This document shows, piece by piece, positions 44,827-55,890 of a stretch of 64,000 nucleotides of DNA. Made by a program: the position numbers and the translations under genes. Location of the stretch: the NCBI GenBank assembly GCA_022826245.1, contig JAJDVG010000040.1, positions 1 through 64,000 of the forward strand. The letters run 5' to 3'. The notes beneath the pieces are model-generated. The model had not been told where the DNA came from and searched no databases. It saw only the letters and a list, made by a program, of their open reading frames with translations. How positions within the stretch are numbered: position 1 is the stretch's first letter; every line of letters starts with the position of its first letter. The DNA comes from Gammaproteobacteria bacterium (lineage in GTDB: Bacteria; Pseudomonadota; Gammaproteobacteria; Steroidobacterales; Rariloculaceae).

Positions 44827-46605
44827 ATGTTCCTTGACAATGGAATCGTCAGGAAAGCGGGCGCCGTTGCGGTGGCGCTTGCCATCGGTTTGTCGTTCTC
44901 GGCGCGCGCCCAGTTTGGCCAGCCGCCGCAGCTATACACGCCGGAGCCCGACGCCCGAGACCTGAAGTCGGTGCTGTTCAACTGGACCTGGTACATGGGC
45001 ATGTTGCGCGGCATCGAGGAGCACGAGCTCATCATCTCGCTCGAATATCGGGGCGAAGGCACCATCCAGGTTGACGGCCAGGCCTGCGCGATCGCGCCGT
45101 ACGAGGACGCGGCGCGGCGGGGCGAGCTCGGCACGTCGGGATACCGCATCAGCGCCAGCTACCAGACGCCCGGCTACCGCACGCACATCGACTGCACTCT
45201 GCCGAATGGTCAGACGTATGCCAATATCGAGGTCGTCAGCGGCGAATACGCCTGGGACGAAGATATCCCGGGCGCCGGCCTCGTGCCGGGCGAAGGTACG
45301 GCCACGCCGAACGCCGATGCCCTCGAAGAGCGTTTGATTCGTCTTTGGGCCAGCCCGTTCGGCGCGCCCAAGGCCGCTTTGGCGGGCGCCGGAATCCCCT
45401 TGAGGAGAGTCTGGCGCGATCCCGGCGGGTTGCTCGAGGACGGTCCCGCGATGATCGGCGAAACGTCGCTGAGCTGGGACGGCGAGACGCCCGTCATCTC
45501 GTTCCCGATTCCCGGCGTCGACGGCGCCACGGGCGTTGCGCGGCTCGACGATCGCTTCATGGCCGAATCCGTGGTCGTGACCCACGGCCGGGATACTTAC
45601 GAGTTCGCCTACACCGACTACGACGACTACAACAATCCGCTGCACAAGATCGAGGTCTACCTGCCCGGCAGAATGACGGAGACCAAAAACGGCGAGGTCC
45701 AGCGCGATCTGGACACGATCGTGACGGAAACGGGCAGCGTCTACGTCGTCATACCCGTGCCGTCGAGCGTTGGCCCGGCCACCGAGGCGGTGGCGATGTA
45801 CGGGACCGACCAGCAGGCGCCGGTGCTCGACTCCACTGCGCCGACGCCGAGGCTCGCCGACGGCAGGCCCGACCTGACCGGGAGCTGGAGCAATCCCGGC
45901 AAGTTCTTCATCTGGCGCTACGGCAGCCGCCGCTGCGGGCCGACCCAGCTCGAAGGCTGCAGCACGCAGTGGAATCAGACGGTAGATTTCGTGTTCGAAG
46001 CCGCTTCGCGATTCGGGCCGAATCGCCCGATCTACCGGCCCGAGCAATGGGACGAGGTCATTTATATGGATATGTGGACCAACCTCTACGATCCGATCAT
46101 GACCTGCCAGCCGATGGGGATTCCGCGCCAGGGCGCACCCGGGCGTATCTTTCATACCGAACGCGACATCACCCTGCTCTATGGACGCGGCGGCGATGGC
46201 GGCGGCGGTTATCCGGACTTCCGCGTGATCGCGACCGACGGCCGCGAGGTGGACGAAAGGCAGGTCAGACAGACCAAGTACACCGGGCATTCCTCCGGCC
46301 ACTGGGACGGCGACACGCTCGTGATCGAGTCGATCGGCTTTACGCCGCTGACCTGGCTCGCGCGCGGCGGCTTCTTTCACTCCGAGGACATGAAGGTCAC
46401 CGAACGCTTCACGCGGCAGGGCGATCAGATGCTCTACGAGGTGACTGTCGAGGATCCCCAGGTGCTGCTCCATCCCTGGGTCCAGAACCCGATGCTCATG
46501 ACCACCGGCCAGGGCGGCCGCAACAGCAACGGCCTGGTCGGCGTCGAGCGCGGCAACTGCCAGCAGATCGTACTCGACGACATCGAGACGCAGTACCGTC
46601 ACTAG
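44827..46605 (+). CDS. Exported protein of the uncharacterised GHWDGDTLV family
   Basis: Signal peptide; RLADGRPDLTGSWSNPGKF; GHSSGHWDGDTLVIESIGFTPLTW. Confidence 0.75.
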   Translation: MFLDNGIVRKAGAVAVALAIGLSFSARAQFGQPPQLYTPEPDARDLKSVLFNWTWYMGMLRGIEEHELIISLEYRGEGTIQVDGQACAIAPYEDAARRGELGTSGYRISASYQTPGYRTHIDCTLPNGQTYANIEVVSGEYAWDEDIPGAGLVPGEGTATPNADALEERLIRLWASPFGAPKAALAGAGIPLRRVWRDPGGLLEDGPAMIGETSLSWDGETPVISFPIPGVDGATGVARLDDRFMAESVVVTHGRDTYEFAYTDYDDYNNPLHKIEVYLPGRMTETKNGEVQRDLDTIVTETGSVYVVIPVPSSVGPATEAVAMYGTDQQAPVLDSTAPTPRLADGRPDLTGSWSNPGKFFIWRYGSRRCGPTQLEGCSTQWNQTVDFVFEAASRFGPNRPIYRPEQWDEVIYMDMWTNLYDPIMTCQPMGIPRQGAPGRIFHTERDITLLYGRGGDGGGGYPDFRVIATDGREVDERQVRQTKYTGHSSGHWDGDTLVIESIGFTPLTWLARGGFFHSEDMKVTERFTRQGDQMLYEVTVEDPQVLLHPWVQNPMLMTTGQGGRNSNGLVGVERGNCQQIVLDDIETQYRH

Positions 46606-46984: not shown

Positions 46985-47239
46985 ATGGCTACCAGGACAA
47001 CTCTCTTGTTGGATGACGAAGTGCGCACGGCGGCCAGGGAACTGGCTCTCCGATACGGCTGTTCGGTGTCCGAAGCCATTCGCCGCGCCGTGCTGCGCCA
47101 CCGCGACGCGACACTCGGCATTTCTCCGGGGCGGCGCAGAGCGAGGATGCGGGTCCTTGAGGAGTTGTTCGATCTGTTCGAGGGTCACGATGCCGAAGAG
47201 GAAATCCGTCGGCTCAAGGAACAGGATGAGGACTTCTGA
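46985..47239 (+). CDS. vapB: Ribbon-helix-helix antitoxin (VapB-like)
   Basis: TRTTLLLDDEVRTAARELALRYGCSVSEAIRRAV; stop abuts the PIN toxin ATG. Confidence 0.8.
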   Translation: MATRTTLLLDDEVRTAARELALRYGCSVSEAIRRAVLRHRDATLGISPGRRRARMRVLEELFDLFEGHDAEEEIRRLKEQDEDF

Positions 47240-47635
47240 ATGCCGATACATCTGGATACCGATTTTCTGGTATACGCGTTGTCGGTAGCCGGGCCAGAGA
47301 GGCGGAAGCTGATAGAGATTTCGAATTCGGGCCAGTTGATCGAGATGAGCGCGATCGCGTGGTACGAATTCATGCGAGGGCCTCGTACTCCCCAGCAGAT
47401 GGGCCGAGCGCGAGCATTTTTTCAGCAGGACGGCATCATTCCTTTCTCGGAGTCCATCGCGGCGGAGGCAGCGGAGATGTTCCGACAGCTTGGGTCGCCT
47501 CGCCGGCGGGCTGCCGATGTGGCGATCGGCGTCACGGCCGCCGCCCGTGGAGCGACTCTACTCACCCGCAACGTCAGGGATTTCGCGGGAATCGCAGGGC
47601 TCGACGTCGCGGATCCGGAGGGGCGCTTGCGTTGA
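47240..47635 (+). CDS. vapC: PIN-domain ribonuclease toxin (VapC-like)
   Basis: HLDTDFLVYAL; SAIAWYEFMRG; RRAADVAIGVTAAARGATLLTRNVRDF. Confidence 0.85.
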   Translation: MPIHLDTDFLVYALSVAGPERRKLIEISNSGQLIEMSAIAWYEFMRGPRTPQQMGRARAFFQQDGIIPFSESIAAEAAEMFRQLGSPRRRAADVAIGVTAAARGATLLTRNVRDFAGIAGLDVADPEGRLR

Positions 47636-47682: not shown

Positions 47683-48063
47683 TCAGATACTCAGATGCAG
47701 CCGCATCGCCGCGTCGATCTCGTTCATGGTCCTTCGCGGCACGCGGCCCAAGCGATTCTTCAAGCGCTCAACGGCAATGGCGCGGATTTGTTCCGCCTGT
47801 GCTTTGGAGTCTTGCCGCAGACCGCACGGTCGGGCCGCGAGCCTGACCTGGAAGGGATACACGCGTCGAACGTTGCCGGTGACCGGCACAATCGTGACCA
47901 CGCCCCGCCTTATCGCCCAAGCGCTCTCGTTGGCCGCGTTATTGCTGACGACCACCGCCGGCCGCTCGAAAGCGGCCTCGGCGCCAATCGGGTGAGCCAA
48001 ATCGACCATCCATATGTCGCCCCGCCGAGGGCCACCGGGGAGTTCACTCCACGATGCCGTCAT
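47683..48063 (-). CDS. mazF: MazF/PemK-type endoribonuclease toxin
   Basis: RRGDIWMVDLAHPIGAEAAFERPAVVVSNN; VTIVPVTGNVRRVYPFQV. Confidence 0.85.
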   Translation of the reverse strand: MTASWSELPGGPRRGDIWMVDLAHPIGAEAAFERPAVVVSNNAANESAWAIRRGVVTIVPVTGNVRRVYPFQVRLAARPCGLRQDSKAQAEQIRAIAVERLKNRLGRVPRRTMNEIDAAMRLHLSI

Positions 48064-48262
48064 CTGCTGTCGCGTCCCAGTTCCTGGCGTCTTCTTCGGT
48101 CCATTCGGTCCAGGCCGACGCGTAGTCGTCGGCAAGTTGCGATGTGCGCAGTAGACGAAGCGCAGCCTGTATGACGCCTGATCGCGACTTAATGCCTTGC
48201 GAGCGCGCATAGGCGTCCACGAATCCGACTTCCTCGGACGGGAGGCTGATGCTGAGTTTCAT
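48044..48262 (-). CDS. Ribbon-helix-helix antitoxin paired with MazF
   Basis: MKLSISLPSEEVGFVDAYARSQGIKSRSGVIQAALRLLR; 20-bp overlap with toxin start. Confidence 0.82.
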   Translation of the reverse strand: MKLSISLPSEEVGFVDAYARSQGIKSRSGVIQAALRLLRTSQLADDYASAWTEWTEEDARNWDATADDGIVE

Positions 48263-48294
48263 AAGCGGGTGGTCGACGGTCTTAATTTGAATGC

Positions 48295-48307
48295 TACTAG
48301 GGTAGTA
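48295..48307. promoter_or_regulatory. Candidate operator, 13-bp inverted repeat TACTA-GGG-TAGTA upstream of the MazEF-type operon
   Basis: Perfect 5-bp arms about 33 bp upstream of the antitoxin ATG. Confidence 0.35.
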
Positions 48308-48469
48308 CATTTCCGGCTTTACGCCAACCGGCTCCGGGGCATTGTCGGCGCCCCCGTTGCTCCTTGCTGTTGCGTCAACCTGAATTAGAGGGGGGCCACG
48401 CTACCTGGAGTCAGCGCTGCCAATATATTGCATGGGACAATGGAGCGCCTTTGCAAACGGAATCTACGG

Positions 48470-48943: not shown

Positions 48944-49375
48944 CTATCGCGTGCTTCTCAAGTCCGACGACGAGCCCGCGTTCACGACCCGACCGTCCGG
49001 AAACGTAACGGTCTTCGCGTTGGCGAGATTCGATCCATCTCTTGCGAGATAGCCCTCGACGGTGATCCGGTCGCCGATCTTCATCGTATCGCGGCCCCAT
49101 CGATACCGGATCAGCGTGTTCGGGCTTCCGAGTTCAAACGCCCAGTTGCTGACGGTGTCGTCGCCATCGGTGACGTCGAGATAGAAGAACGCGTGCGGAT
49201 TGGTCCATTCGACGTTCGTCACGGTGCCGGTCATGCTGACGAATTTCTCCGGATCGAACTGAGCGACGAAGGAGTGATGCGCGAACGCCATCCCCATGGC
49301 GCCGCCAAGAGCGAGCAGGACAACACCGCGCATGAGCGTTACTCCCGTGATCACATGGACTCTCCTGGTTGTCAT
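48944..49375 (-). CDS. DUF6152-type small exported protein
   Basis: Signal peptide ending AFA|HHSFVAQFD; EWTNPHAFFYLDV. Confidence 0.75.
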   Translation of the reverse strand: MTTRRVHVITGVTLMRGVVLLALGGAMGMAFAHHSFVAQFDPEKFVSMTGTVTNVEWTNPHAFFYLDVTDGDDTVSNWAFELGSPNTLIRYRWGRDTMKIGDRITVEGYLARDGSNLANAKTVTFPDGRVVNAGSSSDLRSTR

Positions 49376-50433
49376 GGCCTGCCCCGCCACGGCAGCCCTT
49401 CGATGTTCATTTCCCGGTCGTTGTTTTCCATGCACACGAACTCGAGAATCTCCTGATCGGCGGCGGCGATGCCCGCCGTGCGGCGTATCGTGAACGGCTC
49501 CGTCCACGCATCGGGGTCCTCGGCCGTGACTTCAAGCTCGAGCGTACCGAAACTCGTTCGCCGGTAGCGCTCGACGATCCGCAGGCTCTCGCTGTGTATC
49601 CCGAAGCCGGGCGTGATCTCGTTGTAGCCGATCGTCTCGACCACGAGCGTATCGCCGTCCCAGTGACCGAGCGAGTGACCGTACCAGGACGGATTCCAGA
49701 ACTCCGGGCGATCGCGGTCGTCAAGGAAAATCTGCCGATACGCAGGTGTGACGAATTCCGAAATCTGCACGATCAGATCCGGCGTCTGCACGATCTTGTA
49801 CGGAAAATTCAGCGTCGTCGGGACGGCGCTGTAGGGCAGACAGTAGGCGCCGGCGATCGGATCGACGTTCATCTCGCGTAACTGGCGCGCAATGTCCTGC
49901 GCCCAGGGCTGCATTGCCGGCTGCCGACCCGGACCGGTGGACGCGATGTTGTACCAGATGCCGGACAGATCCGGCGTACCGTCAGCGAACCGGGGCGCCG
50001 GGTCGGACACCTCGCTCGACTTCGATCGCATGTCGTTGCCGAGCATCCCCGGATCGTCACCGATCGTGCCGAGGTTGATATGCCACTGCAGATTCAGGTC
50101 ATGGACGAGTGGCTCGCCGGCCGCAATGGCGACGCTGTCCTCGTTATAGCTTGCATACATGCAACAGGACGTCGGAAAGCTCAGTCGGTAGCTGCCTGCC
50201 GGCAGCCCGTCGACCGCGTACGATCCCTCGACGGAGACATCCGCGGAATAGACGACGTCCGTAGCGTTGTGAGTGAGATGGATCGGCGTATCGAGTCCGG
50301 TCACGATCGAGCCGTTCGGATCGATGAGCTTGCCGCTGATCGATCCGGATTCGCCCTGAGAAAAGCCTGGCCGGGGCACGAGCGCGAAAACGCTCAACGC
50401 GCCGACGGCCGCTGCGGTCATGGCTCGACTCAT
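49372..50433 (-). CDS. Exported protein: carboxypeptidase-regulatory-like N-terminal domain plus GHWDGDTLV family region
   Basis: GSISGKLIDPNGSIV...VEGSYAVDGLPAGSYRLSF; PRFADGTPDLSGIWYN; GHSLGHWDGDTLVVETIGYNE. Confidence 0.72.
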   Translation of the reverse strand: MSRAMTAAAVGALSVFALVPRPGFSQGESGSISGKLIDPNGSIVTGLDTPIHLTHNATDVVYSADVSVEGSYAVDGLPAGSYRLSFPTSCCMYASYNEDSVAIAAGEPLVHDLNLQWHINLGTIGDDPGMLGNDMRSKSSEVSDPAPRFADGTPDLSGIWYNIASTGPGRQPAMQPWAQDIARQLREMNVDPIAGAYCLPYSAVPTTLNFPYKIVQTPDLIVQISEFVTPAYRQIFLDDRDRPEFWNPSWYGHSLGHWDGDTLVVETIGYNEITPGFGIHSESLRIVERYRRTSFGTLELEVTAEDPDAWTEPFTIRRTAGIAAADQEILEFVCMENNDREMNIEGLPWRGRP

Positions 50434-51938
50434 TGTCCTGTCTCCACCTGACGGATCACGGGCATCGTGTGTCCGGACGTATCCACGGGATGAGCAGCGA
50501 TCCCCGAACCATGACCGCCCGCGTGTTTCTCGACATCGATTCCGTGCCACCTGATCGCGCTCATGAGGTCGTCGAACCACAGGCTGAATTGCAGCGGGCG
50601 GTTTGGCGAGAACAGGTCTGCATTGAAGAGCAGCTTCTCGTCGGGTACGTACGCGGCGATCATTCCTTCGGCATGTTCGGTGTAAACGTCGTAAACGTGA
50701 ATCTCGCGTCCGAGTTCGTCAAGGGACAGGAACTGGCCCACTTCAATGAGGTTCACGCTCCGTGCCATGGTCGTTTCGAAGATCGCCCGAAAGTAATCGG
50801 CGTTCTTTTCGCTCGTGACGACGCTGGCGCCCGCCTCGACCACCGGTCGCATGCCGCCCGTGTGGTCGATGTGGTGATGGGTAAGGATCAGGTAGCTGAT
50901 CGGTTTTTCGGGCCAGCGCTCGGCCATCAGGGCAAGCAGCGTCCGCGATCGTTCCGGATACCAGCTCGCATCCACGAGGGCCAGCCCCTCGGGACCCTCG
51001 ATGATGAGATTGTTATGCGTGCCGGGCACCAGGAAGATGCCCGGAGCGATCTCCTCGATCGTGACGTTGTCGATCTGCGGATAGTTGCCGATGTTTCCGC
51101 CGCCGCCGCGCTTGAGGATGATGTGCGACATGTCCCAGCCCCAGCGCCGCATGGCGGGATCGCCGGACGCCAACTGGCTCGCATCGAAAGCGAGCAGGGA
51201 CTCGGCATCCTCGGGATTGACGGATACGGCCGATCTCACCTCACGACGCACGAGTCCGTCCCCGGTGAACTGTTCCAGTCGGAACGGAAACGGTACTCCG
51301 TCGATGTCGCGCCAGTCGCTGAAAACGATCCGGTTCTCGATGCGTCCCTCGTGCGGATCGTTTTCGGTCGTACTGACCGTTGCCGGCAGTCCACTCGTTG
51401 CGTCCATCTCTACCAACCATTGCGTGTCCTCAAGCACGAGTTCGCGCAGTTCGGCCGCACGTTCGCCGCTACCGGTAGTGCTGACCGCTCGCTGCTCGGC
51501 GTGAGCGAGCAGCAGGATCGGGTTCGATAGCCAGAGATCCTTGAAGTTCGCGCCGATCCGCGAGCTTTCCATGGGTCCGTCGAACTGGCCGGCAAGGCCG
51601 CCGCTCTGTCTCCTGGTGCCCACCGTTGCATTGTTGGTAAACGCAATCTGCATCGTGCCCGGCAGCGGATAGATCAACGACATGTCCCAGGACTCATGGG
51701 CACGATTGCCGGCCGGATCCCAGACCGCGACGAGGTCGTAGTCGGACGTATGCATGGCGAAAGCCCCGGCTACCACACTCTGCCTGGGTTCGAATCGCTG
51801 GGCGCGAGCTTCGATCCGGATGGATTCAACCTCGTCGCGGATCCGGTCGAAATCGATTTCCTGTCCCGCTGCGATGGTTCCGATGCCCCAGGCGAACAGG
51901 AAGAGCGCAGTCGATCGCGTAATCGTGCCAACGGACAT
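50430..51938 (-). CDS. Exported MBL-fold metallo-hydrolase
   Basis: Signal peptide; LTHHHIDHTGG zinc motif; HNNLIIEGPEGLALVDASWYPERS. Confidence 0.88.
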   Translation of the reverse strand: MSVGTITRSTALFLFAWGIGTIAAGQEIDFDRIRDEVESIRIEARAQRFEPRQSVVAGAFAMHTSDYDLVAVWDPAGNRAHESWDMSLIYPLPGTMQIAFTNNATVGTRRQSGGLAGQFDGPMESSRIGANFKDLWLSNPILLLAHAEQRAVSTTGSGERAAELRELVLEDTQWLVEMDATSGLPATVSTTENDPHEGRIENRIVFSDWRDIDGVPFPFRLEQFTGDGLVRREVRSAVSVNPEDAESLLAFDASQLASGDPAMRRWGWDMSHIILKRGGGGNIGNYPQIDNVTIEEIAPGIFLVPGTHNNLIIEGPEGLALVDASWYPERSRTLLALMAERWPEKPISYLILTHHHIDHTGGMRPVVEAGASVVTSEKNADYFRAIFETTMARSVNLIEVGQFLSLDELGREIHVYDVYTEHAEGMIAAYVPDEKLLFNADLFSPNRPLQFSLWFDDLMSAIRWHGIDVEKHAGGHGSGIAAHPVDTSGHTMPVIRQVETGQ

Positions 51939-51996
51939 CAGGTGTCTACTCCGGGAACGGCCAATATTGCAAGTGTGAGTCTAACGCAGAGAGTGC

Positions 51997-52419
51997 TCAG
52001 TCCAGCAGCCAGTGCCTGTTGCTCATGTCGCCGATCCGGTAGCGCCCCGCACCGGTGAAGAACAGTGCCGCGCCGACCGCCAGGAAGAACAACTGTCCTT
52101 CCTTGTTCCAGCCGCCGAACTGATTGAGCCCGAAGAACGGAATCGGCAGCACGTAGAAGACCACGACCATCGTAATGATCACCGAAACGGCCGAAAGCCG
52201 TGTGAAGAGGCCGAGCACGAGCAGCACGGGGGCCACGATCTCCGACACGTAGACGAAATACATGAAGACGCCCGGGATGCCGTTGGCGGCCAGCAATCCC
52301 ATCTGACCTTCGACACCTTCGACGACCTTGGGCCAACCGTTCAGAAACAGATTGATCGCGAGCGTAATGCGCAGGATCAGGATTCCGGCGTCGCTGTCCG
52401 TCCAGCGGCCCTGTTGCAT
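51997..52419 (-). CDS. DoxX family membrane protein
   Basis: ITLAINLFLNGWPKVVEG; multi-TM. Confidence 0.85.
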   Translation of the reverse strand: MQQGRWTDSDAGILILRITLAINLFLNGWPKVVEGVEGQMGLLAANGIPGVFMYFVYVSEIVAPVLLVLGLFTRLSAVSVIITMVVVFYVLPIPFFGLNQFGGWNKEGQLFFLAVGAALFFTGAGRYRIGDMSNRHWLLD

Positions 52420-52434
52420 GTTCGCGCTTGCGAA

Positions 52435-53193
52435 TCAGTAGCCGACCGTGAAGCGTTGCCGCACGAACGCCCGGTTCTCTGCTTCATCGACCATCGCAGC
52501 CGCAAGATCGGCCACGTAAATCGAGCTGTTGCCGTCGGCATCGGTGACGAAACCGGTCGTCGATGTGCGGTACTCGCCGCGCCGCGTCGTGTCCGTGATG
52601 CCGCCGAAGGAGTAGCCGAGAATCCCGAACGGCGGGGTGATGACCGTCCAGTCGATGTCGCTTGCGAGGTAGGTGTCGAGCGCAACCCTGTGACCGATCA
52701 GGAACGAATACGGTTGCGTACCTTCAGCGACGGGCATCGGCGCGGCTGCGATCATCTCCTCGACCGTATCGAGCATCGTGGTGGCGCCTCCCACCTGAAT
52801 GACGTACGGAGCGTCCTCCATCGCGCCGAAAGCCGCGATCGCCGTGCTCGCCGCACGCGCATGGGTCGAGTTGGCCGGATCGAAGTCGCCCTCGGGATTG
52901 CCCTGCACCGAGATGACCACCGAGTCCGCGCCGCTCGTGACTTCGGTGAAGGACTCGACATCGGTGACGTCTCCCTGACGGGCGGTGAAATTCGGGTGCT
53001 CAACGGTCAGCCGGTCCGGCGAACGCGAAATTCCGATAACCGCGTGCCCTCGTTCGAGCGCCTCGGCAACGACGAGTCCGCCGATGTTGCCGCTGGCGCC
53101 GAAGACGACGATGGTCTGGCTTTCCTGCGCCTGCGACGGGCCGAAGCCCAGCAGCATGGCCGCAAGACCAGCCGTCAGCAGCGTGATTCTCAT
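52435..53193 (-). CDS. NAD(P)-binding SDR/NmrA-like protein with N-terminal signal peptide
   Basis: MRITLLTAGLAAMLLGFGPSQAQES leader then IVVFGASGNIGGLVVAEALERGH Rossmann motif. Confidence 0.85.
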   Translation of the reverse strand: MRITLLTAGLAAMLLGFGPSQAQESQTIVVFGASGNIGGLVVAEALERGHAVIGISRSPDRLTVEHPNFTARQGDVTDVESFTEVTSGADSVVISVQGNPEGDFDPANSTHARAASTAIAAFGAMEDAPYVIQVGGATTMLDTVEEMIAAAPMPVAEGTQPYSFLIGHRVALDTYLASDIDWTVITPPFGILGYSFGGITDTTRRGEYRTSTTGFVTDADGNSSIYVADLAAAMVDEAENRAFVRQRFTVGY

Positions 53194-53446
53194 TGCTTTT
53201 CCTCCGCGTTGGAAAAACACCCGTTCGGGATTCCGTGACCGACGGGCGTTGCCGGCACGATGTTACCGTATGCGTTCGCCGGTTCGCGGGAAGAATCGTC
53301 AAGAATGATCAAGCGGCCGGGGTTCGGCAGAAATGTTGTGCTACGATCAGTCGCTCGTGACGGGGCCACCGGCAGGCGGCTCGGCAAGGAACAACGATGT
53401 AACAGGCTCGCCGCTGGCGGCGTCGAGCGACGGAGGACTTCGGGGG

Positions 53447-53842
53447 ATGATCAACCGGCGACATTTCCTTGAGATGAGCAGCGGCGTGCTCGTGCTGCCC
53501 GCGACCGGACTCGGCGCCCTGGCCACGGTCGGCGAACCGGCCGATCGATTAATCGTCTACAACGCGGAGTACGCCGACTGCCGGCGTTTCGCGCGCGAGG
53601 CCCTGGGTGCAGGCGGCACTGCCGTCGCGCTCAGCGGTGACATCGGCCTTCGCGAGCGCATGGAGCTGTACCGCACGCTGCTCGAGACACCGAGGACCGT
53701 GCTCGGCATGACGACCGACGAGAATGCCTTTCGGATCGGCATGCTCGCGCGCGACGCCTTTCACGAGCAACTTGTGCATGAGACGGCCGGGCAGCGGCCG
53801 GTCTCATGGTTGGTGACACCGGTCAGGGAGCGCGCGGGCTGA
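53447..53842 (+). CDS. Small Tat-leader-like exported protein, unknown function
   Basis: MINRRHFLEMSSGVLVLPATGLGALA leader; 131 aa. Confidence 0.65.
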   Translation: MINRRHFLEMSSGVLVLPATGLGALATVGEPADRLIVYNAEYADCRRFAREALGAGGTAVALSGDIGLRERMELYRTLLETPRTVLGMTTDENAFRIGMLARDAFHEQLVHETAGQRPVSWLVTPVRERAG

Positions 53843-53896
53843 GCGGCGATTCCTTGAAGACCATAGCGTAAAGATCAGGACGAGAGGGAGATTTCG

Positions 53897-55558
53897 ATGG
53901 CGATTCCACCGGGAGTAAGCGAAAGCGACTTCAACCAGGCATTGCAGGAGTTCGAGAACATCGTCGGCTCCGAATGGGTGTTCACGTCTCCGGAGGCCGT
54001 GGCGCTGTACCGGGACACCTATTCGCCCTTCTACGACGATGAGGGGGAACGGCTGACCTCGGCGGCGATCGCGCCCGATTCATCGGAGCAGGTGCAGGCC
54101 ATCATGCGGGTCTGCAATCGATACCGGATTCCGATCTACCCGATCTCCACGGGCAAGAACCTCGGATACGGCAGTGCGGCGCCGGCGTACTCCGGCAGCA
54201 TGGTGCTCGATCTGAAGCGCATGGACCGCATTCTCGAAGTCGACACCCGCAACCACACGGTGCTCGTCGAACCGGGCGTGACCTTCTTCCAGATCTATCA
54301 GCACTTCCGGGACAACAACCTCGAACTCGACCTCGACATACCGGACCCGGCCTGGGGCAGCCTGATCGGCCACGCGCTCGATCGCGGCGTCGCTCACACC
54401 TATACCGATTTTGGTCGGGACCGTTTCAGCACCGGTTGCGGCATGGAGGTCGTGCTCGCGAACGGCGATCTCGTGCGCACCGGTACGGGCGCGCTCGAAA
54501 CGTCCACCATGTGGCAGCACTACCGTTACGGCGTCGGCCCTTACGTTGACGGCATCTTCAGCCAATCGAACTTCGGTGTCGTGACGAAGATGGGTTTCTG
54601 GATCCGACCGCGCCACAGGGGCTTCAGGACCGGTTACGTGCACGTGCCGAACTACGAGGATCTCGAAGCGCTCATCGACGTGGAGTGCGAGCTCAGCAAC
54701 TCAGGCATCAATAACGGCATGACGTTTTTCGGCAGCGACGTCATGTCCCCGTTCGCACAGGATCCCGAGATCCGCGCCCAATTGCCGTCGAGCGGCCCGC
54801 TCGATCTTGCGGCCATCGATCGCCTCAGGCAGGAGCGCAATACCGGGTTCTGGTGGGCGAAGCTCGATTTCAACGCACCGCTCAAGGTCAGCGCGGCGCA
54901 GTGGGAGCACTGTCAGGATGTCTATTCCGCCGCCATACCGGGTTGCTGGTTCGAGGAGGAGATCGCGCTCGAGTTTCCGCTCAGCGAGGAGGAGAAAGCG
55001 CGCTTGAACACGCCCGGCAATCCGGAAATGGTGCATCTCGGCATGCCGAGCCTGGCCCGATTCCGCGGCGGCAACCGCAGCCCGAGGAATCCCGATCCGG
55101 ACTGGGGACACCTGTGGTTCGCGCCGCTGATTCCGAAGCGCGCCGAGGACATCTTCAGGGCCCAGCGAGTCTTCGATCAGGCGTACCGGGAACGCGGCAT
55201 CGACGCGGGCGTGACGTACTTCGCCAGGATCCCGATGTTCTGGCATGCGCGCGTCGGCGTATTTCTGGCGTCGCTTTCCGTCGGCCGGGACATCGAGGCC
55301 AACCGGAAATCGCGCGAGGACTTCCTGTACCTCGTCCAGGTCGCGGCCGACAACGGCTGGCAGGAATACCGCACGCCGAGCTTCTTCCAGACCGAGGTCA
55401 TGGACATGACCTGCGGATTCAACGATCACGCACTCATGCGTTTCTACGAAACCCTCAAGGATGCCGTCGATCCGAACGGGATACTTTCGGCCGGCAGATA
55501 CGGCATCTGGCCCGAGCATCTGCGCGAGGAGAAGGCGCCGTGGCACAAACGAGGATAG
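53897..55558 (+). CDS. FAD-binding oxidoreductase, 4-cresol dehydrogenase (PCMH flavoprotein) / vanillyl-alcohol oxidase type
   Basis: YPISTGKNLGYGSAAPAYSGSMVLDLKRMDRILEVD PCMH-type FAD fold; SNFGVVTKMGFWIRPRH. Confidence 0.88.
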   Translation: MAIPPGVSESDFNQALQEFENIVGSEWVFTSPEAVALYRDTYSPFYDDEGERLTSAAIAPDSSEQVQAIMRVCNRYRIPIYPISTGKNLGYGSAAPAYSGSMVLDLKRMDRILEVDTRNHTVLVEPGVTFFQIYQHFRDNNLELDLDIPDPAWGSLIGHALDRGVAHTYTDFGRDRFSTGCGMEVVLANGDLVRTGTGALETSTMWQHYRYGVGPYVDGIFSQSNFGVVTKMGFWIRPRHRGFRTGYVHVPNYEDLEALIDVECELSNSGINNGMTFFGSDVMSPFAQDPEIRAQLPSSGPLDLAAIDRLRQERNTGFWWAKLDFNAPLKVSAAQWEHCQDVYSAAIPGCWFEEEIALEFPLSEEEKARLNTPGNPEMVHLGMPSLARFRGGNRSPRNPDPDWGHLWFAPLIPKRAEDIFRAQRVFDQAYRERGIDAGVTYFARIPMFWHARVGVFLASLSVGRDIEANRKSREDFLYLVQVAADNGWQEYRTPSFFQTEVMDMTCGFNDHALMRFYETLKDAVDPNGILSAGRYGIWPEHLREEKAPWHKRG

Positions 55559-55890
55559 TCCTGTTCGTGCTGGGCCTTGGCCTCGCCGGCACCGCGTCGG
55601 CTCAGGACGACGCGGACCTCGCAACCGGCGAGCAGGTCTACAACACCTGGTGCGTGCATTGCCACGATGACAACCGGCCGTGGTCGGGCGGCGGCACGCA
55701 GGCGCTTGAAGTCAAGTACCAGGGTGAGCTGCCGGCCGATCTGCGCGAACGCACGGACATGAGCGCGGACCTCATCACCGCCTACGTGCGCGACGGCCTC
55801 TATCGCATGCCGCCGTTTCGGCTTACGGAGATCGGTGAGGAAGATATGCGGGCGCTTGCCGCATACCTGACGCGCAACAATCCCGAGTGA
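55540..55890 (+). CDS. Exported class I c-type cytochrome
   Basis: Signal peptide VLFVLGLGLAGTASA; CVHCHDD CxxCH; overlaps the flavoprotein 3' end, GTG start. Confidence 0.88.
   Translation: MAQTRIVLFVLGLGLAGTASAQDDADLATGEQVYNTWCVHCHDDNRPWSGGGTQALEVKYQGELPADLRERTDMSADLITAYVRDGLYRMPPFRLTEIGEEDMRALAAYLTRNNPE

Follow-up and report, generated by a model that had tools for sequence, protein, structure and literature searches.

The divergent gene cluster at positions 48944-55890 of the window (the whole stretch of 64,000 nucleotides analyzed here) raises the question of how a flavoprotein that carries no export signal could work together with neighbors that are almost all exported. The first-pass annotation had placed eight genes in this region and had described visible leaders on all products but DoxX and the flavoprotein. 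All eight genes were present, with boundaries that changed only slightly:

48944..49375, minus strand: DUF6152 protein with leader (PF19649, 1.1e-29)
49372..50433, minus strand: GHWDGDTLV-motif exported protein (CarboxypepD_reg, 1.5e-07, a weak match slightly below the cut-off)
50430..51938, minus strand: MBL-fold protein with leader (PF00753, 5.6e-15)
51997..52419, minus strand: DoxX family membrane protein (PF07681, 1.9e-16)
52435..53193, minus strand: SDR/NmrA-like NAD(P)-binding protein with N-terminal leader (PF13460, NAD_binding_10, 5.4e-21)
53447..53842, plus strand: small Tat-leader protein of 131 aa (MINRRHFLEM...), ATG at 53447; candidate Tat escort of the flavoprotein
53897..55558, plus strand: PCMH/VAO-type flavoprotein of 553 aa, leaderless (PF01565, 4.9e-26)
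55540..55890, plus strand: single-haem cytochrome c (CVHCH) with Sec-type leader (PF13442, 3.7e-14)

Inspection by eye revealed leaders on the SDR, MBL, GHWD, DUF6152, small and cytochrome proteins and none at the N-terminus of the flavoprotein, in agreement with the earlier description, and the reported 4-bp ATGA overlaps (50430-50433 and 49372-49375) and gaps of 58 and 15 bp on the minus strand were likewise confirmed in the sequence. The SDR gene starts with ATG at 53193, with a GTG at 53220 as a possible alternative, and the cytochrome gene starts with GTG at 55540, overlapping the end of the flavoprotein gene by 19 bp. A pattern scan for promoters in both directions of the divergent cluster yielded none that was convincing. 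The leaderless flavoprotein, an exception in the list of exported products, proved to be the telling part of the locus, and the small protein encoded upstream probably carries it out of the cytoplasm.

The plus-strand trio (small Tat-leader protein, leaderless VAO/PCMH flavoprotein and cytochrome c) is a flavocytochrome resembling p-cresol methylhydroxylase (PCMH). The flavoprotein matched PCMH/VAO/EUGO structures in PDB along its full length, the best match being 9h40 ('p-cresol methylhydroxylase', 6.6e-158). Its Tyr91, Tyr491 and Arg492 were kept in the alignment as a Tyr/Tyr/Arg phenol site, which we take to be the known phenolate-binding active-site residues. FAD is covalently attached to Tyr in PCMH and to His in VAO/EUGO; the His-His motif of eugenol-oxidase-like sequences was absent from the aligned flavoprotein and its 9h40-type subgroup, in which no Tyr could be assigned as the attachment site either. 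The adjoining, overlapping gene (55540-55890) encodes the c-type cytochrome subunit. Approximately 11 PCMH/VAO-type flavoprotein paralogues were found in this genome, an unusually high number for a single genome, and a cytochrome c of the same type was adjacent to nearly all of those examined.

Based on these sequences and on analogy with known Tat hitchhikers, it appears quite likely that the trio represents a periplasmic PCMH-type flavocytochrome whose flavoprotein is co-exported by the small Tat-leader protein. The flavoprotein would fold and bind FAD in the cytoplasm and would then bind the small protein, whose twin-arginine leader would take the folded pair across the Tat translocase. In the periplasm, the flavoprotein would join the Sec-exported cytochrome, and the enzyme may oxidize a 4-alkylphenol-like compound and pass the electrons to cytochrome c. 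As expected of a Tat hitchhiker pair, the twin-arginine signal is found only on the small partner, and the leaderless, cofactor-bearing partner is genetically linked to it. TatC is present in the genome. Four lines of evidence argue for such an escort, namely that the small-protein gene tracks the exported cytochrome, that the flavoprotein itself bears a Tat leader at two loci, that orphan genes can be matched by clade, and that the distances of the two partners are correlated.

Among flavoprotein places with full flanks, the small-protein gene was found at 59 of the 75 that bear a cytochrome and at none of the 8 that lack it (Fisher 1.9e-5), although the counts and the Fisher value take no account of relatedness, and a few contigs enter them in duplicate. 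Relatives in Rhodococcus and Corynebacterium that have no cytochrome also lacked the small-protein gene. Moreover, at two cytochrome-bearing loci without the gene, L137 and L098, a Tat leader was present on the flavoprotein itself (MSDLNLDRRGLLGAGIIGAASLGLGTG and MPSRRQSLKTGALAMMVAAV, respectively). No profile-detected partner was nearby at 16 of the 75 cytochrome-bearing places; a divergent RR protein or a leader in cis occurs at some of these, and neither was found at L059, L077, L078, L115, L117, L014 and L016. On balance, it is probable that this unnamed, fast-evolving family is a dedicated Tat escort of the VAO/PCMH superfamily, so that PCMH-type flavoproteins would be exported on a Tat leader supplied either in trans or in cis, and cytochrome-less oxidases would have neither.

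Small Tat-leader proteins of one divergent family lie beside seven of the 11 flavoprotein paralogues in this genome. A profile built from them matched approximately 40 family members in 39 related genomes. Among the 30 members fetched from near relatives, 27 had a flavoprotein within 1.5 kb, two had a cytochrome and one was located at a contig end; the usual order was small protein, flavoprotein and cytochrome, with gaps of -3 to approximately 100 bp. When the profile was run over 298 further genomes from across the phylum, clear matches were obtained only in G165 (twice) and G287, all beside PCMH genes, together with two marginal fragments. Since only PCMH-linked genes were matched apart from these fragments, a role of the small protein as a general Tat substrate was rejected. 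Named genomes with the family beside PCMH genes included Gammaproteobacteria, Acidobacteriota, sphingomonads, Roseomonas, Pseudomonas, Nitrosomonas and Sulfuricurvum. Small RR proteins missed by the profile were observed at bpf-like (L136) and Paraburkholderia (L138) loci, and further examples came from Massilia, Caballeronia and Novosphingobium plasmids. On plasmid pNL1 of Novosphingobium aromaticivorans (L191, 1950-2492), the annotated start of a hypothetical protein leaves out the twin arginine that its close relative at L201 shows, and this gene start was probably called too late.

The pairing of the two partners could also be followed where they have become separated. Two flavoproteins of this genome (L009 and L015a) have no partner and two partner genes (L048 and L049) have no flavoprotein, and these were matched by clade: L048 groups by sequence with the partners of the closest relatives of L009, and the orthologue of L049 in another genome stands as partner next to that genome's orthologue of L015a. 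Distances between partners and between flavoproteins were correlated (r=0.62, 50 pairs), a value reached in none of 5000 permutations; inside this genome alone, the correlation was weak (r 0.56, 160 of 5040 permutations). Partners were also swapped, in that window-type flavoproteins of other genomes have a small Tat protein of the L011 type (72% identical) as a divergently transcribed neighbor (loci L011, L056, L057, L023, L033 and L034).

A twin arginine was present in 66 of 67 examined members of the small-protein family. The typical sequence consists of SRREFLQ-G-AA-ALP followed by a core with SGDIT-LW, AGLT and LVSWVIAP, and AlphaFold2 (AF2) predicted a disordered leader followed by a confident small alpha/beta core. 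Searches of Pfam, NCBIfam and PDB sequences with the family gave TAT_signal as the only domain, and this in some members alone (22 of the 55 aligned sequences in Pfam), and Gluconate_2-dh3, the Pfam entry for the gamma subunit of GMC dehydrogenases, matched none of the 55 at E values up to 0.1. Comparison with known hitchhikers revealed no sequence similarity, and Foldseek searches of both models against PDB returned a best E of 0.02 with low TM-scores and no fold match. Databases annotate the family only as hypothetical or Tat-signal proteins. As far as its sequences tell, this is an undescribed, divergent family that has no entry in the searched domain libraries.

Other explanations of the same arrangement should be considered. 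The small Tat protein might be exported alone, as an assembly, flavin-insertion or stabilizing factor or as a third structural or redox subunit, with the flavoprotein crossing the membrane in some other way. Its conserved alpha/beta core with motifs of its own suggests more than a tag holder, and genetic linkage and cytochrome dependence are equally compatible with such a role. However, this would leave unexplained both the Tat leaders on the flavoproteins of two loci that have no small-protein gene and the route by which a leaderless flavoprotein reaches an exported cytochrome, and we therefore consider it unlikely. It is very improbable that the flavoprotein acts in the cytoplasm and that its small Tat neighbor is a periplasmic protein unrelated to it, with only regulation in common. 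The missing leader would fit such a location, but the flavoprotein adjoins an exported cytochrome c, the small protein is missing from cytochrome-less relatives, and the characterized PchCF is periplasmic (PMC12724174). Co-export by the small Tat partner thus appears to be the best account of the trio.

The first-pass annotation had also regarded the products of both strands as a coordinated envelope oxidation/hydrolysis system. This description holds for the plus-strand trio, as a PCMH-type flavocytochrome, but not for the two arms as one pathway, because the arms are apart in a same-genus genome. There, the approximately 9 kb upstream of the flavoprotein orthologue (95%) are free of SDR, DoxX and MBL genes, and another contig carries the MBL orthologue (78%); MBL orthologues of 78-79% occur in two same-genus genomes, both away from PCMH. 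The expectation that the arms would co-occur across genomes was not borne out, since SDR and DoxX had no match at about 100 related flavoprotein loci, and the one partial MBL match among the over 100 loci searched was at a locus without the flavoprotein. The head-to-head arrangement and the many exported products in the window would suit a single periplasmic pathway, as would the DUF6152 and GHWD homologues seen at some other PCMH loci. However, DUF6152 (PF19649) had 91 matches in this 3.6-Mb genome versus none in 14 control genomes, so that its proximity says little, and for the same reason the DUF6152/GHWD pair was dropped as a marker of a PCMH pathway. A single coordinated pathway therefore seems hardly credible. 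Given the separated orthologues and the abundance of DUF6152, the minus-strand genes look like a separate exported operon that neighbors the trio. Many of the DUF6152 matches sit in open frames of 340-430 aa, which suggests a fusion with the GHWDGDTLV domain. Elsewhere in the window, a second, larger exported protein with the GHWDGDTLV motif and no Pfam match is encoded at 44827-46605 (plus strand). Inspection by eye also pointed to two toxin-antitoxin-like pairs: at 46985-47635 (plus strand), a PIN-like ORF is abutted by a short antitoxin-like one, and at 47683-48310 (minus strand), a short antitoxin-like ORF accompanies a MazF-like one.

If the small protein is indeed a Tat escort, this would explain how the PCMH enzyme class reaches the periplasm, to which the PCMH complex has been assigned since 1985. 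c-type cytochromes receive their haem after Sec export. Neither PchF nor BpfA has a signal peptide, the PchCF complex is periplasmic, and a 2025 paper suggested that the signal of the cytochrome guides the PCMH flavoprotein there (PMC12724174). PchCF and its relatives, eugenol hydroxylase and the bisphenol F hydroxylase BpfAB, share with the window trio the VAO/PCMH flavoprotein and single-haem cytochrome c, as well as the pattern of a leaderless flavoprotein and an exported cytochrome. In contrast with them, the flavoprotein of the window is of the 9h40-type subgroup and has a recognized small Tat partner. Because c-type cytochromes acquire haem and are matured after Sec export, guidance of a folded flavoprotein by the cytochrome signal appears unlikely, and a dedicated Tat partner would be mechanistically simpler. 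Our literature search found no published answer to how leaderless PchF reaches the periplasm and nothing relevant on pchX, PCMH with Tat or eugenol hydroxylase export, the original pchX data being outside its reach. In Pseudomonas putida, the open reading frame pchX lies between pchC and pchF; the order cytochrome, small RR protein and flavoprotein was matched in Sulfuricurvum, Massilia and one genome of the phylum sample, a likeness of gene order. The bpf paper gave no role to orf5017, located between the cytochrome and hydrolase genes, and a small RR protein that may be its equivalent is encoded in the corresponding place on L136, a related plasmid. In practice, co-expression of the small gene could be a remedy for poor heterologous production of lignin- or pollutant-degrading PCMH-type enzymes.

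A close functional parallel is FAD-glucose dehydrogenase, in which the role of the gamma subunit as a Tat hitchhiker of a GMC flavoprotein is documented (PMC6719666). This enzyme likewise consists of a small Tat-leader protein, a leaderless flavin catalytic subunit and a c-type cytochrome subunit. However, its flavoprotein belongs to another superfamily, and its gamma subunit has no sequence match to the small-protein family and is all-helical, whereas the latter is predicted to be alpha/beta. By analogy, the small protein would work like the gamma subunit of FAD-glucose dehydrogenase and is not homologous to it by sequence.
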